A stretch of 64,000 nucleotides of DNA from Owenweeksia hongkongensis DSM 17368 (GTDB lineage: Bacteria; Bacteroidota; Bacteroidia; Flavobacteriales; Schleiferiaceae). The notes below the pieces were generated by a model. It was not told the origin of the DNA. It saw nothing but the letters and a program-made list of their open reading frames with translations, and did no database searches. The stretch is taken from contig NC_016599.1 in NCBI RefSeq assembly GCF_000236705.1, positions 3,906,001-3,970,000 of the forward strand. The letters are read 5' to 3'. Below, piece by piece: positions 26,300 through 35,235 of the stretch. Positions within the stretch are counted from its first letter, which is position 1. Every line of letters begins with the position of its first letter. The position numbers and the translations under genes were made by a program.

Positions 26300-26347
26300 T
26301 ACATTTTTTGGTTAATGTCTGAGCAAAAAAGGGGAGTGGTTAAAAAC

Positions 26348-26383
26348 GAAAAAACCCGCCTGAGATGCTCAGACGGGTTTTTG
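26348..26383 (-). terminator. his operon attenuator terminator
   Basis: On the minus strand: AAAAACCCGTCTGAG, loop CAT, CTCAGGCGGG and six T. The 5' arm can pair instead with TCAGGCG inside the leader ORF (26417-26423), which repeats the 3' arm. This provides the mutually exclusive antiterminator helix. Confidence 0.9.
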
Positions 26384-26404
26384 AAAATTTATAGTATACA
26401 CATA

Positions 26405-26467
26405 TCATTTCCTCCTCGCCTGATGACCAGAATGAAAATGATGATGTAGTTGTTGATTCGTTATCAT
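26405..26467 (-). CDS. hisL: his operon leader peptide (20 aa, five His)
   Basis: MITNQQLHHHFHSGHQARRK. His occupies residues 8, 9, 10, 12 and 15. It ends 22 bases before the terminator. A ribosome stalled at the His run leaves the downstream CATCAGGCG free to pair with the terminator's 5' arm (antitermination); a ribosome reaching the stop codon covers it and allows termination. This is the logic of enterobacterial his attenuation. The start codon lies only five bases after the -7 element, so the message may be nearly leaderless. Confidence 0.88.
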   Translation of the reverse strand: MITNQQLHHHFHSGHQARRK

Positions 26468-26502: not shown

Positions 26503-26682
26503 TTTTCGGGTTTAGGATATTCTGAATTAATAGATATTAGAAGAGGGCTGCGGACTCTAAAACCTGTTATGGATAGTCTTTTTTAAGTCAAAAAAGGAAG
26601 CTTAGTTTTAAATCATTTTTACTGTCCATACTCTAGTTGCAACAGGCAAAAATATGTGTGAAGGCTATTTGATTGCATAGGT
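26503..26682. other. Intergenic region between arg and his operons
   Basis: No gene seen. It holds the region upstream of the his promoter and the 3' end of the arg transcript. TTTTTTGACTTAAAAAA near 26580-26600 could form a weak AT-only hairpin, but no convincing arg terminator is visible. Confidence 0.4.
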
Positions 26683-27963
26683 TTAGTTTTCTGACTTCAT
26701 TTTAAGTTTGATTTCCTCCAAACAAAGATTTCCAATACTTCCTTCATGTACATGATTCACTTCTTTTGAAGGGCTGAACTTTCCATCCATAATTTCTTTC
26801 CCCAACTTTTGATAGGCATCTCTAAATGTCATTCCGTTCATCACAAGTTTATTTACTTCTTCTACGCTGTAGAGGTAGTCATATATTGGATTTTCCAGTA
26901 ATTTATCATTGATGGAAATATGCTGCAGCATAAAGTCACAAACCTCCAAATTGTCCTTGGTTTGATCAATTCCGTTCATCAGGCTTTCCTTTAAAAGCTG
27001 AAAATCGCGATGATAACCGGTTGTGAGGTTATTGGTTATAAAACTCAGTTCTACTGGTAAGTTTTGAATCTTGTTGCTATGGGCGCGCATCAATTCAAAC
27101 ACATCTGGGTTTTGTTTGTGCGGCATTATACTCGATCCGGTTGTAAGCTCTTTAGGGAAACCTACAAAGTTGAAATTCTGACTCATAAAAAGACAAATGT
27201 CAGCGGAAAGCTTGGACAAAGTTCCTGCTACAGAAGCCAAAGCGTAGCCTATGGTTTTCTCTAGTTTTCCACGGCTCATTTGGGCAGCCACTACATTGTA
27301 CTTCATGGTTTCAAAACCAAGCAGTTCGGTGGTCATAGAGCGGTTGATAGGGAAAGAAGTACCATAGCCTGCAGCTGACCCAAGTGGATTTTGATCGGCA
27401 ACTTTTAGTGCAGCATTTAGCATGATCATATCATCGATTAAGCTTTCTGCGTAAGCGCTAAACCAAAGGCCAAAGGAAGAAGGCATGGCCACCTGCATGT
27501 GCGTGTAGCCGGGCATGAGTACATTTTTGTGCTGTTCGGCTAGCTTCAGTAAAGTGTCAAATAGATTTTGGATCAATGATTTTATATTATGTATCTCCTC
27601 TTTGACATACAAGTGCAGATCCACTAAAACCTGATCGTTGCGCGAACGTGCGGTGTGAATTTTTTTTCCGGCTTCGCCAATTTGCTGAACCAGCTCAAAT
27701 TCAATTTTACTATGCACATCCTCAAATTGCTCCTCAATAATAAAATCTCCATTTTCAATTTGGGTATCAATGGTTTGCAGTGCTTTTAAAATATCATCAA
27801 GTTCTTGTGTATCAAGAATGCCGATTTTGTGGAGCATAACAGCATGAGCAATATTTCCACGCACATCATGCTTGGCAAGCTTCAAGTCGAGCTGACGATC
27901 ATTGCCTACAGTATATCGGTCTACAATATTTTCGGTGGTGTATCCTTTATCCCAGAGTTTCAT
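26683..27963 (-). CDS. argH: Argininosuccinate lyase
   Basis: 426 residues, shorter than the usual 460 or so, as is common in Bacteroidota. It carries the fumarase-superfamily signature GSSIMPHKQNPD, the N-terminal ARSRNDQ substrate loop and the HMQVAMP segment. It splits argininosuccinate into arginine and fumarate. It is the last gene of the arginine operon, 12 bases after the deacylase gene. Confidence 0.96.
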   Translation of the reverse strand: MKLWDKGYTTENIVDRYTVGNDRQLDLKLAKHDVRGNIAHAVMLHKIGILDTQELDDILKALQTIDTQIENGDFIIEEQFEDVHSKIEFELVQQIGEAGKKIHTARSRNDQVLVDLHLYVKEEIHNIKSLIQNLFDTLLKLAEQHKNVLMPGYTHMQVAMPSSFGLWFSAYAESLIDDMIMLNAALKVADQNPLGSAAGYGTSFPINRSMTTELLGFETMKYNVVAAQMSRGKLEKTIGYALASVAGTLSKLSADICLFMSQNFNFVGFPKELTTGSSIMPHKQNPDVFELMRAHSNKIQNLPVELSFITNNLTTGYHRDFQLLKESLMNGIDQTKDNLEVCDFMLQHISINDKLLENPIYDYLYSVEEVNKLVMNGMTFRDAYQKLGKEIMDGKFSPSKEVNHVHEGSIGNLCLEEIKLKMKSEN

Positions 27964-27975
27964 AGGGTATGTTTT

Positions 27976-29028
27976 TTATAATATGGTTTCAAAAAGTTTA
28001 ATGTAAATGTCGATGCCTTCTTCAATCTCATTTAAATAAATAAATTCATTGGCCTGATGCGATCGCGTGGAATCTCCGGGTCCTAATTTTAAAGAAGGAC
28101 ATGATAGCGAAGCCTGATCGGAAAGAGTAGGCGAGCCATAGGTAGTTCTTCCCAAAGCAATACCCGCCTGAACGATGGGATGATTTTCTGGTATAGAAGA
28201 CGAATTCAATCGGAAGGAGCGGGCCTTTAACTCACTCTTAGTGTGTTCGTTAATAATTTCAAAAACCTCCTGATTGCTGTAATGCTCATTCACGCGAACG
28301 TCTATCACAAAGTGGCAACTGGCGGGAACAACATTGTGCTGGCTGCCGGCATTTATTTGTGTGACGCTCATTTTTACCGGACCCAGCACCTCCGAAGCTG
28401 TTGAGAAGCTATAGTTGCGTATCCACTGAATATCATCCATAGCATTATAAATGGCATTGTCGGTATTGGTGTGTGCTGCGTGGCCTGAAACACCAGGTGC
28501 GTAAGCGTCAATTACCAACAGGCCTTTTTCGGCTATGGCCAGGTTCATTTGTGTAGGCTCGCCCACCACTGCAAATTCTATCGGTGGTGTTATTTTCAAC
28601 AAACTATTCAGGCCATTCGGTCCAGAACTTTCTTCTTCCGCAGTAGCGGCCATTAGCAGGTTGTACCTAAGGTTTTCACTTGCGTAAAAATGGGTAAAGA
28701 GAGCGATGAGCGAAACCAGACAACCACCAGCATCATTGCTGCCAAGGCCATATAACTTTCCATCTTCCACCTTGGCTTCAAATGGATCATTGGTATAACC
28801 TGAGTTTGGCTTTACCGTGTCGTGATGTGAGTTGAGAAGTATGGTTGGTTTATTTTTGTCAAAGTGTTTGTTGGTTGCCCAAATGTTATTGTCATTTCGA
28901 TTAAAGGGAATTTTATGATCATCAAACCAGTTGCAAATATGCTTTGCGGTTTCATCTTCTTCACCCGAAAAGGAAGGTGTCACAATTAACTTTTTTAGTA
29001 GTTCAATGGCTTTTTGCTGTAGTTCCAT
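27976..29028 (-). CDS. argE: N-acylornithine/N-acylcitrulline deacylase (M20 family)
   Basis: 350 residues, an M20 metallopeptidase-fold deacylase. Metal ligands are visible in SHHDTV, GSNDAGG and EEESSGPNG, with a dimerisation domain between. In Bacteroidota, carbamoylation occurs on N-acylornithine, so this enzyme probably removes the acyl group from N-acylcitrulline before ArgG, rather than acting as a classical acetylornithine deacetylase. Whether the acyl group is acetyl or succinyl cannot be read from the sequence. Confidence 0.88.
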   Translation of the reverse strand: MELQQKAIELLKKLIVTPSFSGEEDETAKHICNWFDDHKIPFNRNDNNIWATNKHFDKNKPTILLNSHHDTVKPNSGYTNDPFEAKVEDGKLYGLGSNDAGGCLVSLIALFTHFYASENLRYNLLMAATAEEESSGPNGLNSLLKITPPIEFAVVGEPTQMNLAIAEKGLLVIDAYAPGVSGHAAHTNTDNAIYNAMDDIQWIRNYSFSTASEVLGPVKMSVTQINAGSQHNVVPASCHFVIDVRVNEHYSNQEVFEIINEHTKSELKARSFRLNSSSIPENHPIVQAGIALGRTTYGSPTLSDQASLSCPSLKLGPGDSTRSHQANEFIYLNEIEEGIDIYIKLFETIL

Positions 29029-29039
29029 TCTTGAAAAAT

Positions 29040-29819
29040 TTAGAGGATTAAAGTGCTATGAACGGAGGTTTCATCCTTTAGAAAATTGATGTTGCCTATA
29101 CACACTTTTGATACTTTATTTTTCAAGGCATGAAAGCAATTCTCCATTTTAGGCAGCATCCCATCATGAATGCTATTGGCGTTTTTTAGCGCTTCATATT
29201 TAATGCTGTCGATATTTTCAATCACTGAATTATCATCAGCCAAATCTGCCAACACGCCTTGTTTTTCGAAGCAGTAAATTAATTCTGTTTCATATTCTTT
29301 TACCAGTGCTATTGCCAATTCCGAAGCAATGGTGTCGGCATTAGTGTTTAGCAATTGCCCATTTCCGTCATGGGTGATAGCACAAAATACAGGACAAATT
29401 CCATCCTGTAGCCATTGAGAAATCACAGGGTGATTTACAGTTTTTACATCACCCACAAAACCGAAATCAATTGGCTCAACCGGACGTTTGATAGAAAGAA
29501 TGCTATTTCCATCTGCACCGGTAAAGCCAGCAGCATTACAAGTAAAAGCCTGCAATTGGGCCACTATGTTTTTATTGATCAGCCCTGCGTAGATCATGGT
29601 TACAATGTCTATGTCTTCGGCAGATGTAATTCTTCGACCATTGATCATTTGAGGTTCGATACCAAGTTTTCTGCTAAATATAGATGCCTTTTTTCCACCA
29701 CCATGCACCAGAATTTTATGACCTTCCATTTTGGAAAAGGAGTGCAAAACTTCAGAAAGTGCCGCAGGGTCGTCAATAACGTTTCCTCCAACTTTTATGA
29801 TTCTTAGTTTATCCGACAT
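29040..29819 (-). CDS. argB: N-acylglutamate kinase
   Basis: 259 residues, amino acid kinase fold. KVGGNVIDD and VHGGGKKAS are the phosphate-binding Gly-rich loops; NTNADTIASELA is the nucleotide/substrate segment. It phosphorylates N-acylglutamate. Overlaps the carbamoyltransferase gene by 11 bases. Confidence 0.95.
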   Translation of the reverse strand: MSDKLRIIKVGGNVIDDPAALSEVLHSFSKMEGHKILVHGGGKKASIFSRKLGIEPQMINGRRITSAEDIDIVTMIYAGLINKNIVAQLQAFTCNAAGFTGADGNSILSIKRPVEPIDFGFVGDVKTVNHPVISQWLQDGICPVFCAITHDGNGQLLNTNADTIASELAIALVKEYETELIYCFEKQGVLADLADDNSVIENIDSIKYEALKNANSIHDGMLPKMENCFHALKNKVSKVCIGNINFLKDETSVHSTLIL

Positions 29820-30759
29820 TCTGAAGCATTTTTAGTAAAACCGTTTGCGCGGCATAGGTCCTGTTGTTGGCCTGTTCCAAAACCAATGAATTTCCGGAGT
29901 CTATCACTTCATCTGTTACCACCACGTTTCTGCGGACAGGCAGGCAATGCATAAACTTTCCATTATTGGTCAAATCCATTTTTGGTTTGGAGATAGTCCA
30001 GTCGGTAAGATTTGGAGCAGTTTGTCCATAGTTCTCGTATGATGACCAATTTTTGGCGTATACAAAGTTGGCTCCAGCCAAAGCTTCATTCTGATTGTGA
30101 AGAACTGTAACACCATCGGTAAATTCTGGAGACAAATCAAACCCTACAGGATTTGTAATTACCAATTCTACATCAGCTTGCTTCATCCACTCTACAAATG
30201 AATTGGCCACAGCCTGAGGTAGAGCACGAGGGTGTGGCGCCCAGCTCAGTACCACTTTGGGACGAGTTATTTTTTTTTGCTCTTCTATGGTGATCAAATC
30301 CGCGAAGGACTGCAATGGGTGAAGGGTAGCACTTTCTAATGAAACCACCGGAACTTTAGCACTTTGGATAAACTTGGTGAGCACCTTTTCCGAATAATCT
30401 TCGTCACGGTTTTTTAACTCAGCAAAAGTTCTAATGCCGATGATGTCACAGTATTGGGAAATAACACCAGCGGCTTCCTTGATGTGTTCCTGACTTCCTT
30501 GATCCATCACTGTTCCGTCTGTCATTTCTATAGACCAACCTTCGGTTCCCAAATTCATCACCATTACGTTCATGCCGAGATTCAAAGCCGCTTTTTGCGT
30601 GCTCAACCTTGTCCGTAAACTTGGGTTTAAAAAAATAAGCCCAAGGGTTTTGTTTTTACCAAATTCCTGGAAACCAAAAGGGTTTGCTTTTATTTCCAGC
30701 GCTTTTTTCAACCAAGCATTTATATTGGTTAAATCTTTTACAGAGGTGAAATTCATCAT
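29809..30759 (-). CDS. argF: N-acyl-L-ornithine carbamoyltransferase (Bacteroidota type)
   Basis: 316 residues of the aspartate/ornithine carbamoyltransferase fold. The carbamoyl-phosphate loop is the divergent NPSLRTRLS rather than STRTR, and HPLQSFADL and HCLPVRRNV are present. This matches the N-acetyl/N-succinylornithine branch known from Xanthomonas and Bacteroides, not classical ArgF. In that branch a single residue (Glu or Pro in the characterised enzymes) sets acetyl versus succinyl preference; by my rough alignment the site falls at GSQEH and seems to be Gln, which needs a proper alignment. The gene overlaps argD by four bases. Confidence 0.9.
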   Translation of the reverse strand: MMNFTSVKDLTNINAWLKKALEIKANPFGFQEFGKNKTLGLIFLNPSLRTRLSTQKAALNLGMNVMVMNLGTEGWSIEMTDGTVMDQGSQEHIKEAAGVISQYCDIIGIRTFAELKNRDEDYSEKVLTKFIQSAKVPVVSLESATLHPLQSFADLITIEEQKKITRPKVVLSWAPHPRALPQAVANSFVEWMKQADVELVITNPVGFDLSPEFTDGVTVLHNQNEALAGANFVYAKNWSSYENYGQTAPNLTDWTISKPKMDLTNNGKFMHCLPVRRNVVVTDEVIDSGNSLVLEQANNRTYAAQTVLLKMLQNVG

Positions 30760-31883
30760 GACAAATGTTTTTTTAGTGCTTCCACAAATGGTTTGAAATC
30801 ATCGATAGTGATACAAAGTGGAGGCAGGATTCGCAAGAGATTTGGGTTGGATGTTGATCCAGTAAAAATTTGATCTTCAAAAAGCAGTTTGGAACGTAAC
30901 TCCTTTATCGGAAAATCGAATTCCAATCCTAACATTAGGCCTCTGCCTTTAAGTTTTTTTACCTGAGGAATTGCTTTCAACTCCTCCGAAAGTAAGGCCC
31001 CGGTTTTCTTTGCATTTTGTATAAGTGACTCATCTTTCAAAACATTGAGCACGGCAATACCTGCAGAGCAAGCAAGATGATTTCCGCCAAATGTTGTTCC
31101 TAGCATTCCGTGCTTTGCTTCAATATTTGGGTGAAGTAAAATGCCCCCAATCGGAAATCCATTTCCCATGCCTTTGGCTATAGAAATGATGTCTGGGGTA
31201 ACATTATATTTTTGAAAGGCGAAGAAGTCTCCCGTACGCCCATAGCCAGATTGTACTTCATCGGCTATCAGAAATGCATCATGTTTTTTGCACAGATTAC
31301 TTAGCTGCTCATAGAATTCTTGAGTGCTTTCATCAAGGCCACCAACGCCCTGAATAAACTCAATAATAACCGTACACACACCTCCTTTTTGAAGCTCCGA
31401 TTTTACGGTTTCCAAATCGCCAAGCTCAATGAAGGTAACTTCTTGCTGTTGGTTTAGCGGGGCATTTATTTTGGGGTTGTCTGTAGCAGCAACCGCGGCA
31501 GAAGTCCTTCCATGAAAGGAGTTTTTGAAAGCAATGACTCTCGATTTATTAGTAACAAAAGAGGCAACTTTCAAAGCATTCTCATTGGCTTCAGCGCCAG
31601 AATTACACAAGAAAAGGTTGTAATCGACACATCCTGAAAGTTCGCCCAGCTTTTGAGCAAGTTCTTCCTGCAGCGGGTTTTGAATGGCATTGGAATAAAA
31701 GCCAAGTTTTGCTACCTGATCCTGAATAGATTTCACATAGTAGGGATGAGAATGCCCGATTGAAATAACCGCATGGCCTCCATACAGATCAAGGTATTCC
31801 GTGCCTTTTTCATCATACACATGAATGCCCTTAGCATTTACAGGAGTAATGTTATATAGGGGATAAACGTCAAATAATTTCAT
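30756..31883 (-). CDS. argD: N-acylornithine aminotransferase
   Basis: 375 residues, class III PLP aminotransferase. Visible motifs: GGHAVISIGHSHP near the N terminus, CNSGAEANENALK, the cofactor Asp in LIADEVQSGYGRTG, and the PLP lysine in SIAKGMGNGFP. It converts N-acylglutamate semialdehyde to N-acylornithine. It starts where argC stops. Confidence 0.96.
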   Translation of the reverse strand: MKLFDVYPLYNITPVNAKGIHVYDEKGTEYLDLYGGHAVISIGHSHPYYVKSIQDQVAKLGFYSNAIQNPLQEELAQKLGELSGCVDYNLFLCNSGAEANENALKVASFVTNKSRVIAFKNSFHGRTSAAVAATDNPKINAPLNQQQEVTFIELGDLETVKSELQKGGVCTVIIEFIQGVGGLDESTQEFYEQLSNLCKKHDAFLIADEVQSGYGRTGDFFAFQKYNVTPDIISIAKGMGNGFPIGGILLHPNIEAKHGMLGTTFGGNHLACSAGIAVLNVLKDESLIQNAKKTGALLSEELKAIPQVKKLKGRGLMLGLEFDFPIKELRSKLLFEDQIFTGSTSNPNLLRILPPLCITIDDFKPFVEALKKHLS

Positions 31884-32860
31884 CAGAAGTAACTGGCTTT
31901 AAGGTTTAGTCCGGTACTTTCATTAAGACCAAACATTAGGTTCATATTTTGGATAGCTTGCCCGGAGGCTCCTTTTAAAAGGTTGTCAATCACGGAGATG
32001 ATTAGCACTTTGCCATCTATTTTTTGCACCTGAAGCAAGCAGAAGTTGGTGTTAACTACTTGCTTAAGGTTGATACCATTTGCACTGATTTTGGTGAATG
32101 GAGCATCCTCATAATAAGATTTGTAAAGCGCGCTTAATTCTTCTTCTGAGAGTTCACAATTGGTGTAGACGCAGGCAAAAATTCCTCTTGTAAAATCTCC
32201 CCGTAAGGGAAGGAAGTTTAAAGCTTTATCAAAATCGGGTTGAAGGGAAACCAAGCTTTCGCCAATTTCACCTAAATGCTGATGGCTAAAAGCTTTGTAG
32301 ATGGACAGGTTGTTATTTCGCCAACTAAAATGTGTGGTAGCTGATGGTGATTGACCTGCACCAGTAGACCCTGTTATGGCGTTTATGTGAACTTCATTTT
32401 TAAGAAAACCACCTTTTGCCAGTGGCAACAAAGCCAATTGAATCGCTGTGGCAAAACAGCCTGGGTTGGCAATATATCCAGCATTTGCAATCTTTTCCTT
32501 GTTCAGTTCAGGGAGCCCATAAACGTACTCTTTACCCAAAAAATTAGCATCAGCTTCAAGCCTAAAATCATTGCTAAGGTCAATTACTTTGGTACTTGGC
32601 GAGAAGGTGTGGTTTTCCAGAAACTTCTTAGAATTTCCATGACCTAAACAAAGGAAAAGCACATCCACATTGAGGTTTACCTGATCGGTAAATTGTAAAC
32701 TTTCAAAGCCAAATAAATCTTCATGAACGGATGCAACACTCTGTCCCGGCTGAGAGTGACTGTATATAAAGTCAATCTTTACGTTAGGGTGATTTACCAA
32801 TAGACGAATCAATTCTCCCGCCACGTAACCTGTGCCGCCAATTATTCCTGCTTTAATCAT
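31883..32860 (-). CDS. argC: N-acyl-gamma-glutamyl-phosphate reductase
   Basis: 325 residues from the ATG at 32860, chosen because MIKAGIIGGTGYVAGELIRL is the usual N terminus; an ATG at 32884 would add eight atypical residues. The Rossmann loop GGTGYVAGE and the active Cys in ANPGCFATA are present. NADPH-dependent reduction gives the semialdehyde used by ArgD. The start overlaps the argG stop by eight bases. Confidence 0.95.
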   Translation of the reverse strand: MIKAGIIGGTGYVAGELIRLLVNHPNVKIDFIYSHSQPGQSVASVHEDLFGFESLQFTDQVNLNVDVLFLCLGHGNSKKFLENHTFSPSTKVIDLSNDFRLEADANFLGKEYVYGLPELNKEKIANAGYIANPGCFATAIQLALLPLAKGGFLKNEVHINAITGSTGAGQSPSATTHFSWRNNNLSIYKAFSHQHLGEIGESLVSLQPDFDKALNFLPLRGDFTRGIFACVYTNCELSEEELSALYKSYYEDAPFTKISANGINLKQVVNTNFCLLQVQKIDGKVLIISVIDNLLKGASGQAIQNMNLMFGLNESTGLNLKASYF

Positions 32861-34079
32861 AGGTATCCGAGTTTTGAAGTTCACTATTTACCTTGTCATT
32901 CACATGTTTGAAAATTTTCATGGGATTGGCCAATATTTTAGTGAAGCCTTTCACATCATCGCCCGTCCATTGTTTGTTGATTTCTCCATAATCTGCAAAA
33001 CCTGATTTCATCAAATCATAAGGAGAGTCAATTCCTTGGACGATAAAACGATAGGGTAGAAGTTCTACGAAAACTTTACCCGACACGGTTTTTTGTGAAT
33101 CTTGAAGAAAGCCTTCAATATTGCGCATTACAGGTTCAAAATATTGCGATTCATGGATGAACATGCCGTACCAATCGCCCAGCTGTTGTTTCCAATGTTG
33201 CTGCCATTTAGAGAGTGTATGTTTTTCTAAAGTGTGATGTGCTTTGATGATGATACTTGCCGCTGCTGCTTCAAAACCTACACGTCCTTTTATTCCAATA
33301 ATTGTATCACCAATATGCATATCTCTACCAATAGCATATTTGCTGGCAATAGATTCAAGTTTTTGAATGGCTTCAACCGGAGCTAGATTATCATCATCCA
33401 AGCCAACTAGTTCGCCATTTTCAAAAGTCAAAGCAATTTGCTTGGGCGTAGTTTCAACCAGAGGGCTGGGGTAGGCTTCTTCTGGGAGTGGAGCGTGAGA
33501 TGTAAGTGTTTCTGCACCGCCAATGCTGGTTCCCCAAAGGCCTTTATTGATAGAATATTGAGCTTTTTTCCAATCGATGTTTACTCCATGTTTTGCCAGG
33601 TATTCAATTTCCGCTTGACGCGAAAGTTGTTGATCACGTATAGGCGTTATGATTTTAATTTCGGGAGCGATAAGTTGGAAAACCAAATCAAAACGCACCT
33701 GATCATTTCCCGCACCAGTGCTGCCATGAGCAATGTAAGATGCGCCAACTTCTTGGGCATATTCCGCTAAGGCAATGGCCTGATAAATTCGCTCAGCACT
33801 TACCGAAAGAGGGTAGGTGTTGTTTTTTAATACGTTGCCAAAAATCAAATATTTGATAATTTTTTGGTAATAATTATCCGTTTCCTCCAGAGCGATATGC
33901 GAACTGACTCCAAGGTTAAATGCTTTGGTTTCAATTTCCTGAAGCTCCTCTGGCGAAAAACCTCCTGTATTTACAATTGCTGAATGTACTTCCAGGTTTT
34001 TGTCATGCTTTAAATACTTTACGCAGTAGGAAGTATCTAAACCGCCACTAAAGGCGAGAACAACTTTATTATTCATCAT
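32853..34079 (-). CDS. argG: Argininosuccinate synthase
   Basis: 408 residues. The ATP pyrophosphatase P-loop AFSGGLDTSYC is near the N terminus, followed by the HGSTGAGNDQVRFD citrulline/aspartate-binding segment. It joins citrulline and aspartate. Two consecutive ATG codons are possible starts. It overlaps the upstream GNAT gene by 11 bases. Confidence 0.97.
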   Translation of the reverse strand: MMNNKVVLAFSGGLDTSYCVKYLKHDKNLEVHSAIVNTGGFSPEELQEIETKAFNLGVSSHIALEETDNYYQKIIKYLIFGNVLKNNTYPLSVSAERIYQAIALAEYAQEVGASYIAHGSTGAGNDQVRFDLVFQLIAPEIKIITPIRDQQLSRQAEIEYLAKHGVNIDWKKAQYSINKGLWGTSIGGAETLTSHAPLPEEAYPSPLVETTPKQIALTFENGELVGLDDDNLAPVEAIQKLESIASKYAIGRDMHIGDTIIGIKGRVGFEAAAASIIIKAHHTLEKHTLSKWQQHWKQQLGDWYGMFIHESQYFEPVMRNIEGFLQDSQKTVSGKVFVELLPYRFIVQGIDSPYDLMKSGFADYGEINKQWTGDDVKGFTKILANPMKIFKHVNDKVNSELQNSDTYD

Positions 34080-34743
34080 TGGATTTTAGATTTTTTAATG
34101 CTGGTTTTAGGAAAGGGAATTTTTGAAGTTTCTTTTGAATGCGCTCTTTGCGCTCTGTCATAAAGCTTCTGAAATTTTCCCATGATTTTTTCTTATCCAG
34201 AGGCTTAGGCAGAGTTTTACTCAAATCGTACATCATACCTGTGCATAAGCACATGCCGCGATTAGTGCGTAGCAGAATGTCGTGATTAGGGCAGCTTTCG
34301 CAGCCTTTCCAAAAGGCATTATCCTGAGTAAGCTCCGAAAATGGAACGGGCTTGTAGCCCAGGTCAGAGTTTATTCGCATTACCGCCTGGCTGGTGGTAA
34401 TTCCGAATAATAGTGACGTAGGAAACTTTTGTTTTGAAAGGTCGAACGTGGCTTGCTTAATGGCTCTTGCCAGTCCTGTATTGCGATATTCAGGATGAAC
34501 AATAAGCCCGGAGTTGGCCACATATTTTTTGCCTTCCCAGGTTTCTATGTAACAAAAACCAACAACTGTGTTCACATCAAATGCGATCACAGCCTTGCCT
34601 TCGGCCATTTTGGCTTGTATGTATGCGGGCTCACGTTTGGCAATTCCTGTCCCGCGAATTTTAGCGGCATCCGCCATCATTTGGCAAATAGATTCCGCGT
34701 ATTGAGAATGACTCTCATCAGCCACCTTAACAATATATGACAT
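34069..34743 (-). CDS. GNAT acetyltransferase, probable N-acylglutamate synthase of the arg operon
   Basis: 224 residues. An N-terminal GNAT domain (about 5-130) shows the acyl-CoA-binding LIVHPEYRNTGLARAIK segment. The C-terminal half has a four-Cys cluster (CESCPN, then CLCTG), suggesting a metal site, and a basic tail. As the first gene of an operon that otherwise lacks argA and argJ, it is the best candidate for the first step, acylation of glutamate. I recall that related Bacteroides proteins next to argG have been implicated in N-succinylglutamate synthesis, but this is from memory. Acetyl versus succinyl use is undetermined. Confidence 0.75.
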   Translation of the reverse strand: MSYIVKVADESHSQYAESICQMMADAAKIRGTGIAKREPAYIQAKMAEGKAVIAFDVNTVVGFCYIETWEGKKYVANSGLIVHPEYRNTGLARAIKQATFDLSKQKFPTSLLFGITTSQAVMRINSDLGYKPVPFSELTQDNAFWKGCESCPNHDILLRTNRGMCLCTGMMYDLSKTLPKPLDKKKSWENFRSFMTERKERIQKKLQKFPFLKPALKNLKSNDE

Positions 34744-34962
34744 TGAAAAGAGGATTAAACTTTAGAAAAAAAATGAAATGAAATAAGTACGATTGTACTG
34801 TGGCGAGGCTACGTAAGCCCGCAAAGGATGATATTACGCCCTAAGGCGTCTTCGTGACCTGCGAAGGCGGAGAGTGGAATCCATAGAGCTATTTCTCCAA
34901 AAATTTGGAGAGCATTCGCTGTTATATGGATTTTGTTGTTTCACCGCTTTGGTTATTCAATA
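34744..34962 (-). promoter_or_regulatory. arg operon leader RNA region
   Basis: About 220 bases between the predicted start of transcription and the first arg gene. In order on the minus strand it has: a hairpin with arms 34925-34931 and 34879-34885 that encloses the leader ATG; the Arg-rich leader ORF (34834-34884); a hairpin at 34803-34822 (GCGGGCT with AGCC-T-CGC); a small hairpin at 34786-34799 (AGTAC/GTACT); and a U-rich stretch ending in eight T near 34766-34773. The leader's terminal CGTAA (34834-34838) can pair with TTACG (34812-34816), which would disrupt the 34803-34822 hairpin. No strong canonical terminator is present. Confidence 0.5.
34834..34884 (-). CDS. Candidate arginine operon leader peptide (16 aa, seven Arg)
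   Basis: MDSTLRLRRSRRRLRA; Arg at 6, 8, 9, 11, 12, 13 and 15, using CGC, AGG, CGA and AGA codons. It lies on the operon strand between a good -7 element and the first arg gene, as hisL does before hisG. Downstream RNA can form mutually exclusive helices. The caution is that the DNA (CGCCTTCGCAGG and similar) is GC-rich and palindromic and resembles dispersed intergenic repeats, in which CGN codons arise easily, and no strong terminator follows. It would act as a translation-dependent arginine sensor if real. Confidence 0.5.
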   Translation of the reverse strand: MDSTLRLRRSRRRLRA

Positions 34963-34968
34963 GAAGTA

Positions 34969-34976
34969 CAAATGTA
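34969..34976 (-). promoter_or_regulatory. arg operon -7 element (TACATTTG)
   Basis: Identical to the his operon -7 element. The -33 position 19 bases upstream reads TTC instead of TTG. Transcription would start near 34962. Confidence 0.65.
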
Positions 34977-35151: not shown

Positions 35152-35162
35152 CTGTCACTGAG

Positions 35163-35235
35163 TCGGGATGACAGGACTTGAACCTGCGGCCTCACGCCCC
35201 CCAGACGTGCACTCTACCAACTGAGCTACATCCCG
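35163..35235 (-). tRNA. tRNA-Pro (anticodon GGG)
   Basis: 73 bases including discriminator A. Acceptor CGGGATG pairs with CATCCCG over seven bases; D arm GCTC/GAGT with AGTTGGTA; anticodon stem CACGT/GCGTG with loop CTGGGGG, so the anticodon is GGG; T arm GCAGG/CCTGT with TTCAAGT. CCA is not encoded, as is common in Bacteroidota, so the nucleotidyltransferase at 46567 would add it. Confidence 0.95.

Follow-up and report, generated by a model that had tools for sequence, protein, structure and literature searches.

A probable arginine-sensing leader peptide ahead of the arg operon in Owenweeksia hongkongensis and its relatives

RESULTS

The arg operon of O. hongkongensis and the region upstream of it

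The window, by which we mean the whole analyzed stretch of 64,000 nucleotides of the O. hongkongensis genome, carries on its minus strand an arg operon preceded by a small Arg-rich ORF. The features are as follows.

34969..34976, minus strand: TACATTTG, read in the sequence, which we take to be a Bacteroidota-type -7 promoter element (consensus TAnnTTTG)
34834..34944, minus strand: leader peptide ORF of 36 codons, MKQQNPYNSECSPNFWRNSSMDSTLRLRRSRRRLRA, an open frame with a putative GTG start
34834..34884, minus strand: Arg-rich 3' part of this ORF, 16 codons, MDSTLRLRRSRRRLRA, whose ATG may be internal only
34836..34849, minus strand: predicted hairpin H1, ACGCC-UUAG-GGCGU, whose stem ends on the stop codon's U (folding)
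34803..34822, minus strand: predicted hairpin H2, GCGGGCU-UACGU-AGCC(U)CGC, with one bulged U, a UAYGY-type loop, and no U tract behind (folding and covariation)
34786..34799, minus strand: weak predicted hairpin AGUAC-AAUC-GUACU ahead of a U-rich stretch, a candidate weak terminator (folding)
34069..34743, minus strand: first operon gene, a GNAT-family acetyltransferase (Pfam PF13508/PF00583; no NCBIfam match)
26683..34079, minus strand: argG, argC, argD, N-acetylornithine carbamoyltransferase, argB, argE-like deacylase, and argH (ORFs and NCBIfam)

The original prediction had placed a 16-codon ORF with seven Arg codons (minus strand, 34834-34884) between the promoter element and an eight-gene arg operon. 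The ORF was found as described, and the gene order, from the GNAT acetyltransferase gene through argG to argH with his genes following, was borne out by ORFs, NCBIfam, and Pfam. Across the class, 144 of 396 genomes and 89 of 199 genera had the GNAT gene. In 82 of the 114 longer loci checked, it was followed on the same strand by argG at a distance of no more than 300 nt; in the remaining 32, argG was further away, absent, or outside the sequence covered. Within the host's family, the GNAT gene and argG of this operon type were found in 2 of 88 genomes, the host and G030.

Several neighboring elements were also observed on the minus strand. A tRNA-Pro (GGG) gene (35162-35235) precedes the arg promoter in the same orientation, with its own terminator-like repeat behind it. 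In the interval between argH and the his promoter, a long imperfect inverted repeat (26563-26646; CCTGTT..TATGGACAGT / ACTATCCATAACAGG) may mark where the arg transcript ends. Before hisG, a hisL-like leader, MITNQQLHHHFHSGHQARRK (26347-26467), stands behind its own TACATTTG and is followed by a GC-rich hairpin and U6 (AACCCGTCTGAGCATCTCAGGCGGGTTTTTTCG), resembling an ordinary his attenuator.

The leader ORF lies between TACATTTG and the first operon gene at 34743, and contains seven Arg codons within its last 12 codons (in order, CGC CGC AGG CGA AGA CGC AGG in MDSTLRLRRSRRRLRA). When the 350-nt upstream region was dinucleotide-shuffled, this Arg density was matched in none of 200 shuffles. 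The Arg-rich 16 codons of the original prediction are present, but translation probably starts 20 codons before the ATG proposed there, at the GTG at 34944, since the frame is open to that point and related leaders have 34-37 codons. The distance from TACATTTG to this start is 24 nt.

The suspicion, raised together with the original prediction, that the DNA is a palindromic dispersed repeat did not survive a search of the 4,000,057-base genome: the leader was unique, the next best match being 23 bases long (E 0.07). No known Rfam element matched the window leader or 20 related loci; in particular, the T-box model had no match in these loci or in the window, where the tRNA was the sole Rfam match. 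In the same genome, no Arg-rich leader ORF was found within 420 nt upstream of carA.

Arg-rich leaders in relatives

In G030, TACATTTG is followed seven bases further by an ATG and then by MKNNATYTSLQAAMIMAEVAVMRSLRRFERRLRA. This leader has 34 codons and ends in RSLRRFERRLRA, whereas that of the window ends in LRLRRSRRRLRA; its N-terminus, MKNNATYT, is similar to MKQQNPYN of the window leader. Comparison of the two sequences indicates that the G030 leader follows the same plan as that of the window and has diverged from it. Leaders of similar length were found in L014 and L015 (36 codons each) and L063 (34 codons), and Arg-rich upstream ORFs also occurred in Kapaibacterium (L070) and Ignavibacteria (L089) loci, which by title lie outside the class. 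The comparison of relatives proposed with the original prediction thus came out in its favor, Arg-rich ORFs preceding the arg operons of both close and distant ones.

Two further arrangements were observed among relatives. In ten loci from Gillisia, Salegentibacter, Gramella, and similar genera (L028, L069, L079, L085, L087, L090, L091, L123, L135, and L144), two Arg-rich ORFs stand in tandem, near -300 and -90, which looks like two arginine leaders in series. In 11 Labilibaculum/Ancylomarina/Marinifilum-type loci (L026, L033, L047, L061, L067, L068, L071, L075, L077, L078, and L080), a conserved small ORF of 46 residues (..NNKWLCLTAVALFWE(I/T)) instead lies just before the GNAT gene.

Arginine enrichment upstream of arg operons across the class

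Arginine enrichment was measured in a blind test, in which each ORF of 12-70 codons in the 300 nt upstream was taken and the residues of its last 12 codons were compared with those in 200 dinucleotide shuffles. The test took 91 of 98 upstream loci (87 and 88 genera, respectively), leaving out six same-genus duplicates and one genus's only locus, keeping four same-genus pairs, and excluding the window. Arginine gave a Stouffer z of 17.1, followed by proline at 5.2, and antisense arginine gave 1.35. At single loci, p 0.05 for arginine was reached in 34 of 91 cases, compared with 5 of 91 on the antisense strand. An earlier test on 30 upstream regions, a sample separate from the 91 loci, had given a z of 9.9 for arginine (next, Phe at 3.5), part of which may be due to four Labilibaculum/Ancylomarina/Marinifilum-type loci among the 30. 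Examples of leader ends are ..RRPIMPRA, ..PLRRTRFTFRV, ..PRPRRGC, and ..FYPRRP.

The promoter motif was likewise recurrent. Of 78 leader loci, 36 (the window included) had TAnnTTTG at 30-190 nt before the leader stop, against 6.6 expected by shuffling, and in 21 of these 36 an in-frame start followed 4-10 nt past the motif, so many such mRNAs may be nearly leaderless. Under our first leader rule (three Arg in the last 12 codons, stop at -190 to -50), 41 loci failed, and on inspection a good part of them had no such ORF. These upstream sequences indicate that Arg-rich leader ORFs are a widespread and arginine-specific feature of arg operon leaders in the class.

Coding selection and codon use in the leaders

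Spirosomataceae-type leaders (..HTTPFRFRSPRTA), 31 in number, were examined for signs of translation. Where codons differed by a single base, the difference was synonymous in 65% of cases in frame, compared with 29% and 16% in the other frames, and internal stops numbered 0 in frame versus 29 and 24. In the aligned leaders, Arg codons interchange among CGA, CGG, and AGG. The substitution pattern indicates that leader ORFs are under coding selection in this clade, the one with enough close sequences; the window's own leader may likewise be translated, by analogy with the G030 leader.

Codon usage was counted in 66 leaders, which had been chosen by Arg content. AGG and CGA made up 27% and 22% of their Arg codons, compared with 11% and 9% in the long ORFs of 80 loci, and in 46 of the 66 no more than one codon separated the final Arg codon from the stop.

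Distribution of the leader and of ArgR

We next examined the arginine repressor ArgR (PF01316). No match was found in the host genome at E up to 1e-4. In the class, ArgR was found in 19 of 396 genomes, leaving 377 without detectable ArgR. In all 14 clear-ArgR genomes with a GNAT operon, the ArgR domain was encoded within 400 nt upstream of the operon on the same strand. Of these 14 loci, 1 satisfied the leader rule, compared with 63 of the 88 loci in which ArgR was not found (one-sided Fisher test, p 6e-6), the rule here being a loosened one (last 14 codons, stop at -200 to -40) set after inspecting failures of the first. With the first rule, the counts were 1 of 9 ArgR loci and 56 of 89 others; when four Arg were required, they were 0 of 14 and 33 of 88 (p 0.003). 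G252, with a weak ArgR hit, was left out of the comparison of 14 with 88 loci. The single leader-positive ArgR locus was L187, whose ORF, with its stop at -58, we took to be a chance occurrence, and 25 of the 88 ArgR-negative loci failed the rule. The 14 ArgR loci span four families, so the comparison is not phylogenetically independent and independent swaps are few. These distributions suggest that leader and ArgR are, for the most part, mutually exclusive at the start of the arg operon.

Hairpins behind the leader

When the window was folded together with G030, L014, L015, and L063, H1 was predicted in the equivalent place in all four relatives. H2 began 8-12 nt past the stop codon in each of the five, with differing stems; in G030, both hairpins occupied the same places as in the window, and the stem of H2 was different. 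Pairing was retained while sequence changed, as a comparison of compensatory pairing along the lines of the original prediction would have it. The switch proposed there fared differently. In the window, pairing between CGTAA at the 3' end of the ORF and the TTACG in the H2 loop is indeed possible, but it was kept at that place in none of the four relatives, although CGTAA of L014 can pair with TTGCG elsewhere, and we rejected it as a conserved switch.

Folding constrained by ribosome footprints was performed for the window, G030, L015, and L014. H2 was kept with a ribosome on the Arg codons or with none; a ribosome at the stop left it intact in G030 and shortened it in the window, L015, and L014. 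This behavior therefore does not discriminate among the mechanisms considered below.

The loop of H2 was followed across 77 leaders, consisting of 56 obtained by rule, 11 added by eye after inspecting rule failures, and 10 named loci. The scan took the first TAYGY located 5-50 nt past the leader stop and ignored pairing. UAYGY was found in 29 of the 77 (13.8 expected), nine of these being named loci picked after their hairpin was visible. Across the 29 loci, the flanks were paired in 82.8% of cells versus 51.5% in shuffles, and 70 double-change cells were counted versus 23.5, a number reached by none of 500 shuffles, with slid controls at 15-31. For the 20 loci not picked beforehand, the values were 77.1% versus 51.7% paired and 42 versus 16.7 double-change cells (0 of 500 shuffles). 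Among the rule-only leaders, the motif itself was not clearly enriched (14 of 56, 10.3 expected), whereas UAYGY with at least five of seven flanking pairs occurred in 10 of 56, compared with 0.7 in shuffles and a highest value of 5 in 500. The covariation indicates that the UAYGY-type H2 is real in a subset of leaders as a minority feature, the support coming from pairing and not from the motif count. The lowered weight of H2 leaves the odds of our main reading unchanged, as that reading does not rest on H2.

A UAYGY loop on a freely covarying stem was also seen to recur 11-28 nt past the leader stop in several families (alignments A5 and A7). We had likened the H2 loop to an anticodon loop with U33 and ACG, presumably an Arg anticodon; this mimicry was dropped, as 9 of the 29 loops have AUG and not ACG. 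A structure model, R1, was built from 21 leaders of one clade and matched 47 of 82 sources at E <= 0.001. Searched against 295 genomes, R1 hit five places, four directly before an arg operon and one, weak, elsewhere. It misses the window leader, L013-L017, and L063 at E up to 10, and hence shows the specificity of one clade's leader only.

Mechanism of the leader

We consider it very probable that the element in the window is an arg operon leader that works through Arg codons read by the ribosome. The mRNA would probably start about 20 nt ahead of the 36-codon ORF. When charged tRNA-Arg is scarce, the leading ribosome would stall on the Arg codons and alter the choice of hairpins behind RNA polymerase, so that transcription could reach the arg genes. 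When arginine is plentiful, the ribosome would finish and leave, H1 and H2 would form, and transcription or expression would be curtailed. The tiny Arg-rich gene thus probably lets the ribosome sense arginine shortage, although the sensing itself is something that we infer.

A rather different origin of the ORF, a chance GC-rich palindrome reading as arginine, would draw on the CGCC/GGCG repeats, which yield CGN codons, and on the window being a single locus. Dinucleotide shuffles, the antisense strand, and ArgR-bearing loci do not, however, show the arginine excess, and Arg codons interchange between CGA, CGG, and AGG in aligned leaders; we regard chance as refuted. It is quite improbable that the hairpins themselves are the regulator, as a riboswitch or protein-binding site with UAYGY as the ligand site and the Arg-rich ORF secondary. 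The H2 stem does covary around a fixed loop over distant families, but the loop motif is missing from 42 of 56 leaders chosen by Arg content, the ORF is under coding selection in the Spirosomataceae-type clade, and, as noted, no Rfam family matched the window leader or the 20 relatives.

In classical attenuation, an Arg-stalled ribosome would favor an antiterminator over an intrinsic terminator, which in the window would be H2 or the weak AGUAC hairpin. Exactly such an arrangement was found in L150 and L177, which represent two genera within a single family: behind each leader (..NLRSPRRQPNTAG and ..NYRSLRRRPYAAG) stands a -16 kcal/mol terminator with U6. There, the last part of the ORF contains GGCAGGC, the same sequence as in the terminator's 3' arm, and can pair with the 5' arm in place of the latter (-14.2 and -18.8 kcal/mol). 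As in the textbook arrangement, GGCAGGC would be hidden under a ribosome that has reached the stop but would stay available while a ribosome is stalled on the Arg codons. U6 also stands directly behind the H2 of L064, and in 34 Spirosomataceae-type sequences (among L018-L088) TACTACG in the HTTP codons can form a 7-bp helix with CGTGGTA of H2, 92% paired, as an alternative to H2. The window shares with classical attenuators a short ORF with regulatory codons between the promoter and the first gene, but not a U-tract intrinsic terminator before that gene: in agreement with the original prediction that no strong terminator follows, the terminator scan gave nothing that passed there, the AGUAC hairpin scored under its threshold, and few matches lay between leader and gene in other loci; H2 has no U tract in the window. 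Nor did the window contain a mutually exclusive, conserved antiterminator and terminator, the CGTAA:TTACG pairing not being kept at that place in four relatives. Such leaders therefore occur with and without a terminator, and for the window we consider intrinsic termination unlikely. L150 and L177 also share an additional small ORF, with a product ending in IxDMLNYT; it is located downstream of the terminator, within the last 130 nt before the GNAT gene.

For the output step in the window, Rho-dependent termination in the G-poor stretch past H2 is a guess, to which we give clearly less than even credence. Ribosome release at the leader stop would expose this C-rich, G-poor stretch, and an Arg-stalled ribosome or altered hairpins would prevent termination. 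Rho is encoded in the host genome, C exceeds G past the stop in 70 of 78 leaders, and the 20 nt behind H2 average 61% pyrimidine and 8% G (15 loci). This bias is barely above background, however, as C also exceeds G in 25 of 33 loci with no leader, and a rut element is not provable from sequence. As for the arginine attenuation that the original prediction had proposed, its leader was supported by comparison, whereas classical termination is unproven in Owenweeksia, where no terminator was found. We thus describe the element as a real arginine leader peptide akin to ribosome-mediated attenuation, and not as a proven member of the classical type.

DISCUSSION

Leader-peptide attenuation is a textbook mechanism. 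The arginine leader resembles the hisL, trpL, and leuL attenuators in being a small ORF that stands directly behind the promoter of a biosynthetic operon, contains many codons for the amino acid made by the pathway, and is overlapped at its end by hairpins. It differs in that the amino acid is arginine, the Arg codons run up to the stop, no U-tract terminator is found in the window, and a covarying UAYGY hairpin stands behind some of the leaders. Arginine synthesis is also controlled by a peptide-coding upstream ORF in fungi, where the conserved arginine attenuator peptide (arg-2 / CPA1 uORF) stalls ribosomes when arginine is plentiful; this is eukaryotic translation control and, unlike the window leader, it is not based on Arg codons. 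ArgR/AhrC exerts arginine feedback on arg operons and, like the leader, heads the same operon, in 14 genomes; by contrast, it is a DNA-binding protein, was not found in the host, and rarely coincides with the leader. T-boxes differ from the window leader in that their RNA interacts with tRNA directly, with no leader peptide involved. The arginine T-boxes of Firmicutes are similar in that arginine supply is sensed at the RNA level before arg genes (PMC1262725).

The original prediction held that attenuation by arginine had not been established, and we found no description of an arginine leader peptide before a bacterial arg operon in the literature searched, the papers of one library. In the portions covered, the T-box study lists arginine as T-box controlled and names attenuators for other amino acids (PMC1262725), and the text of another contains no such arginine leader element (PMC8632094). 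Clues to leader-peptide attenuation before amino acid operons have been described in Flavobacterium psychrophilum, with arginine not named in the part covered, although the supplement may list it (PMC9723704), and leader-like small ORFs are mentioned in a study on Bacteroides thetaiotaomicron (PMC7366714). A hisL-based reporter study contains both "Arg codons" and "leader peptide" (PMC4046918).

We rate it an even chance that the leader represents an old, class-wide alternative to ArgR which in many lineages, including that of the window, lacks an intrinsic terminator and acts through the stop-codon hairpin and, in a subset, the UAYGY hairpin, as an undescribed ribosome-read RNA switch. The leaders would form a natural series, with the textbook terminator type at one end and, at the other, types in which the loop of the output hairpin is fixed. 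At the start of this operon, repressor and RNA leader appear to stand in for one another. Arginine as an attenuation signal for arg operons was not described in the literature searched, and would explain how arginine synthesis could be controlled in the 377 of 396 genomes of the class in which ArgR was not detected.
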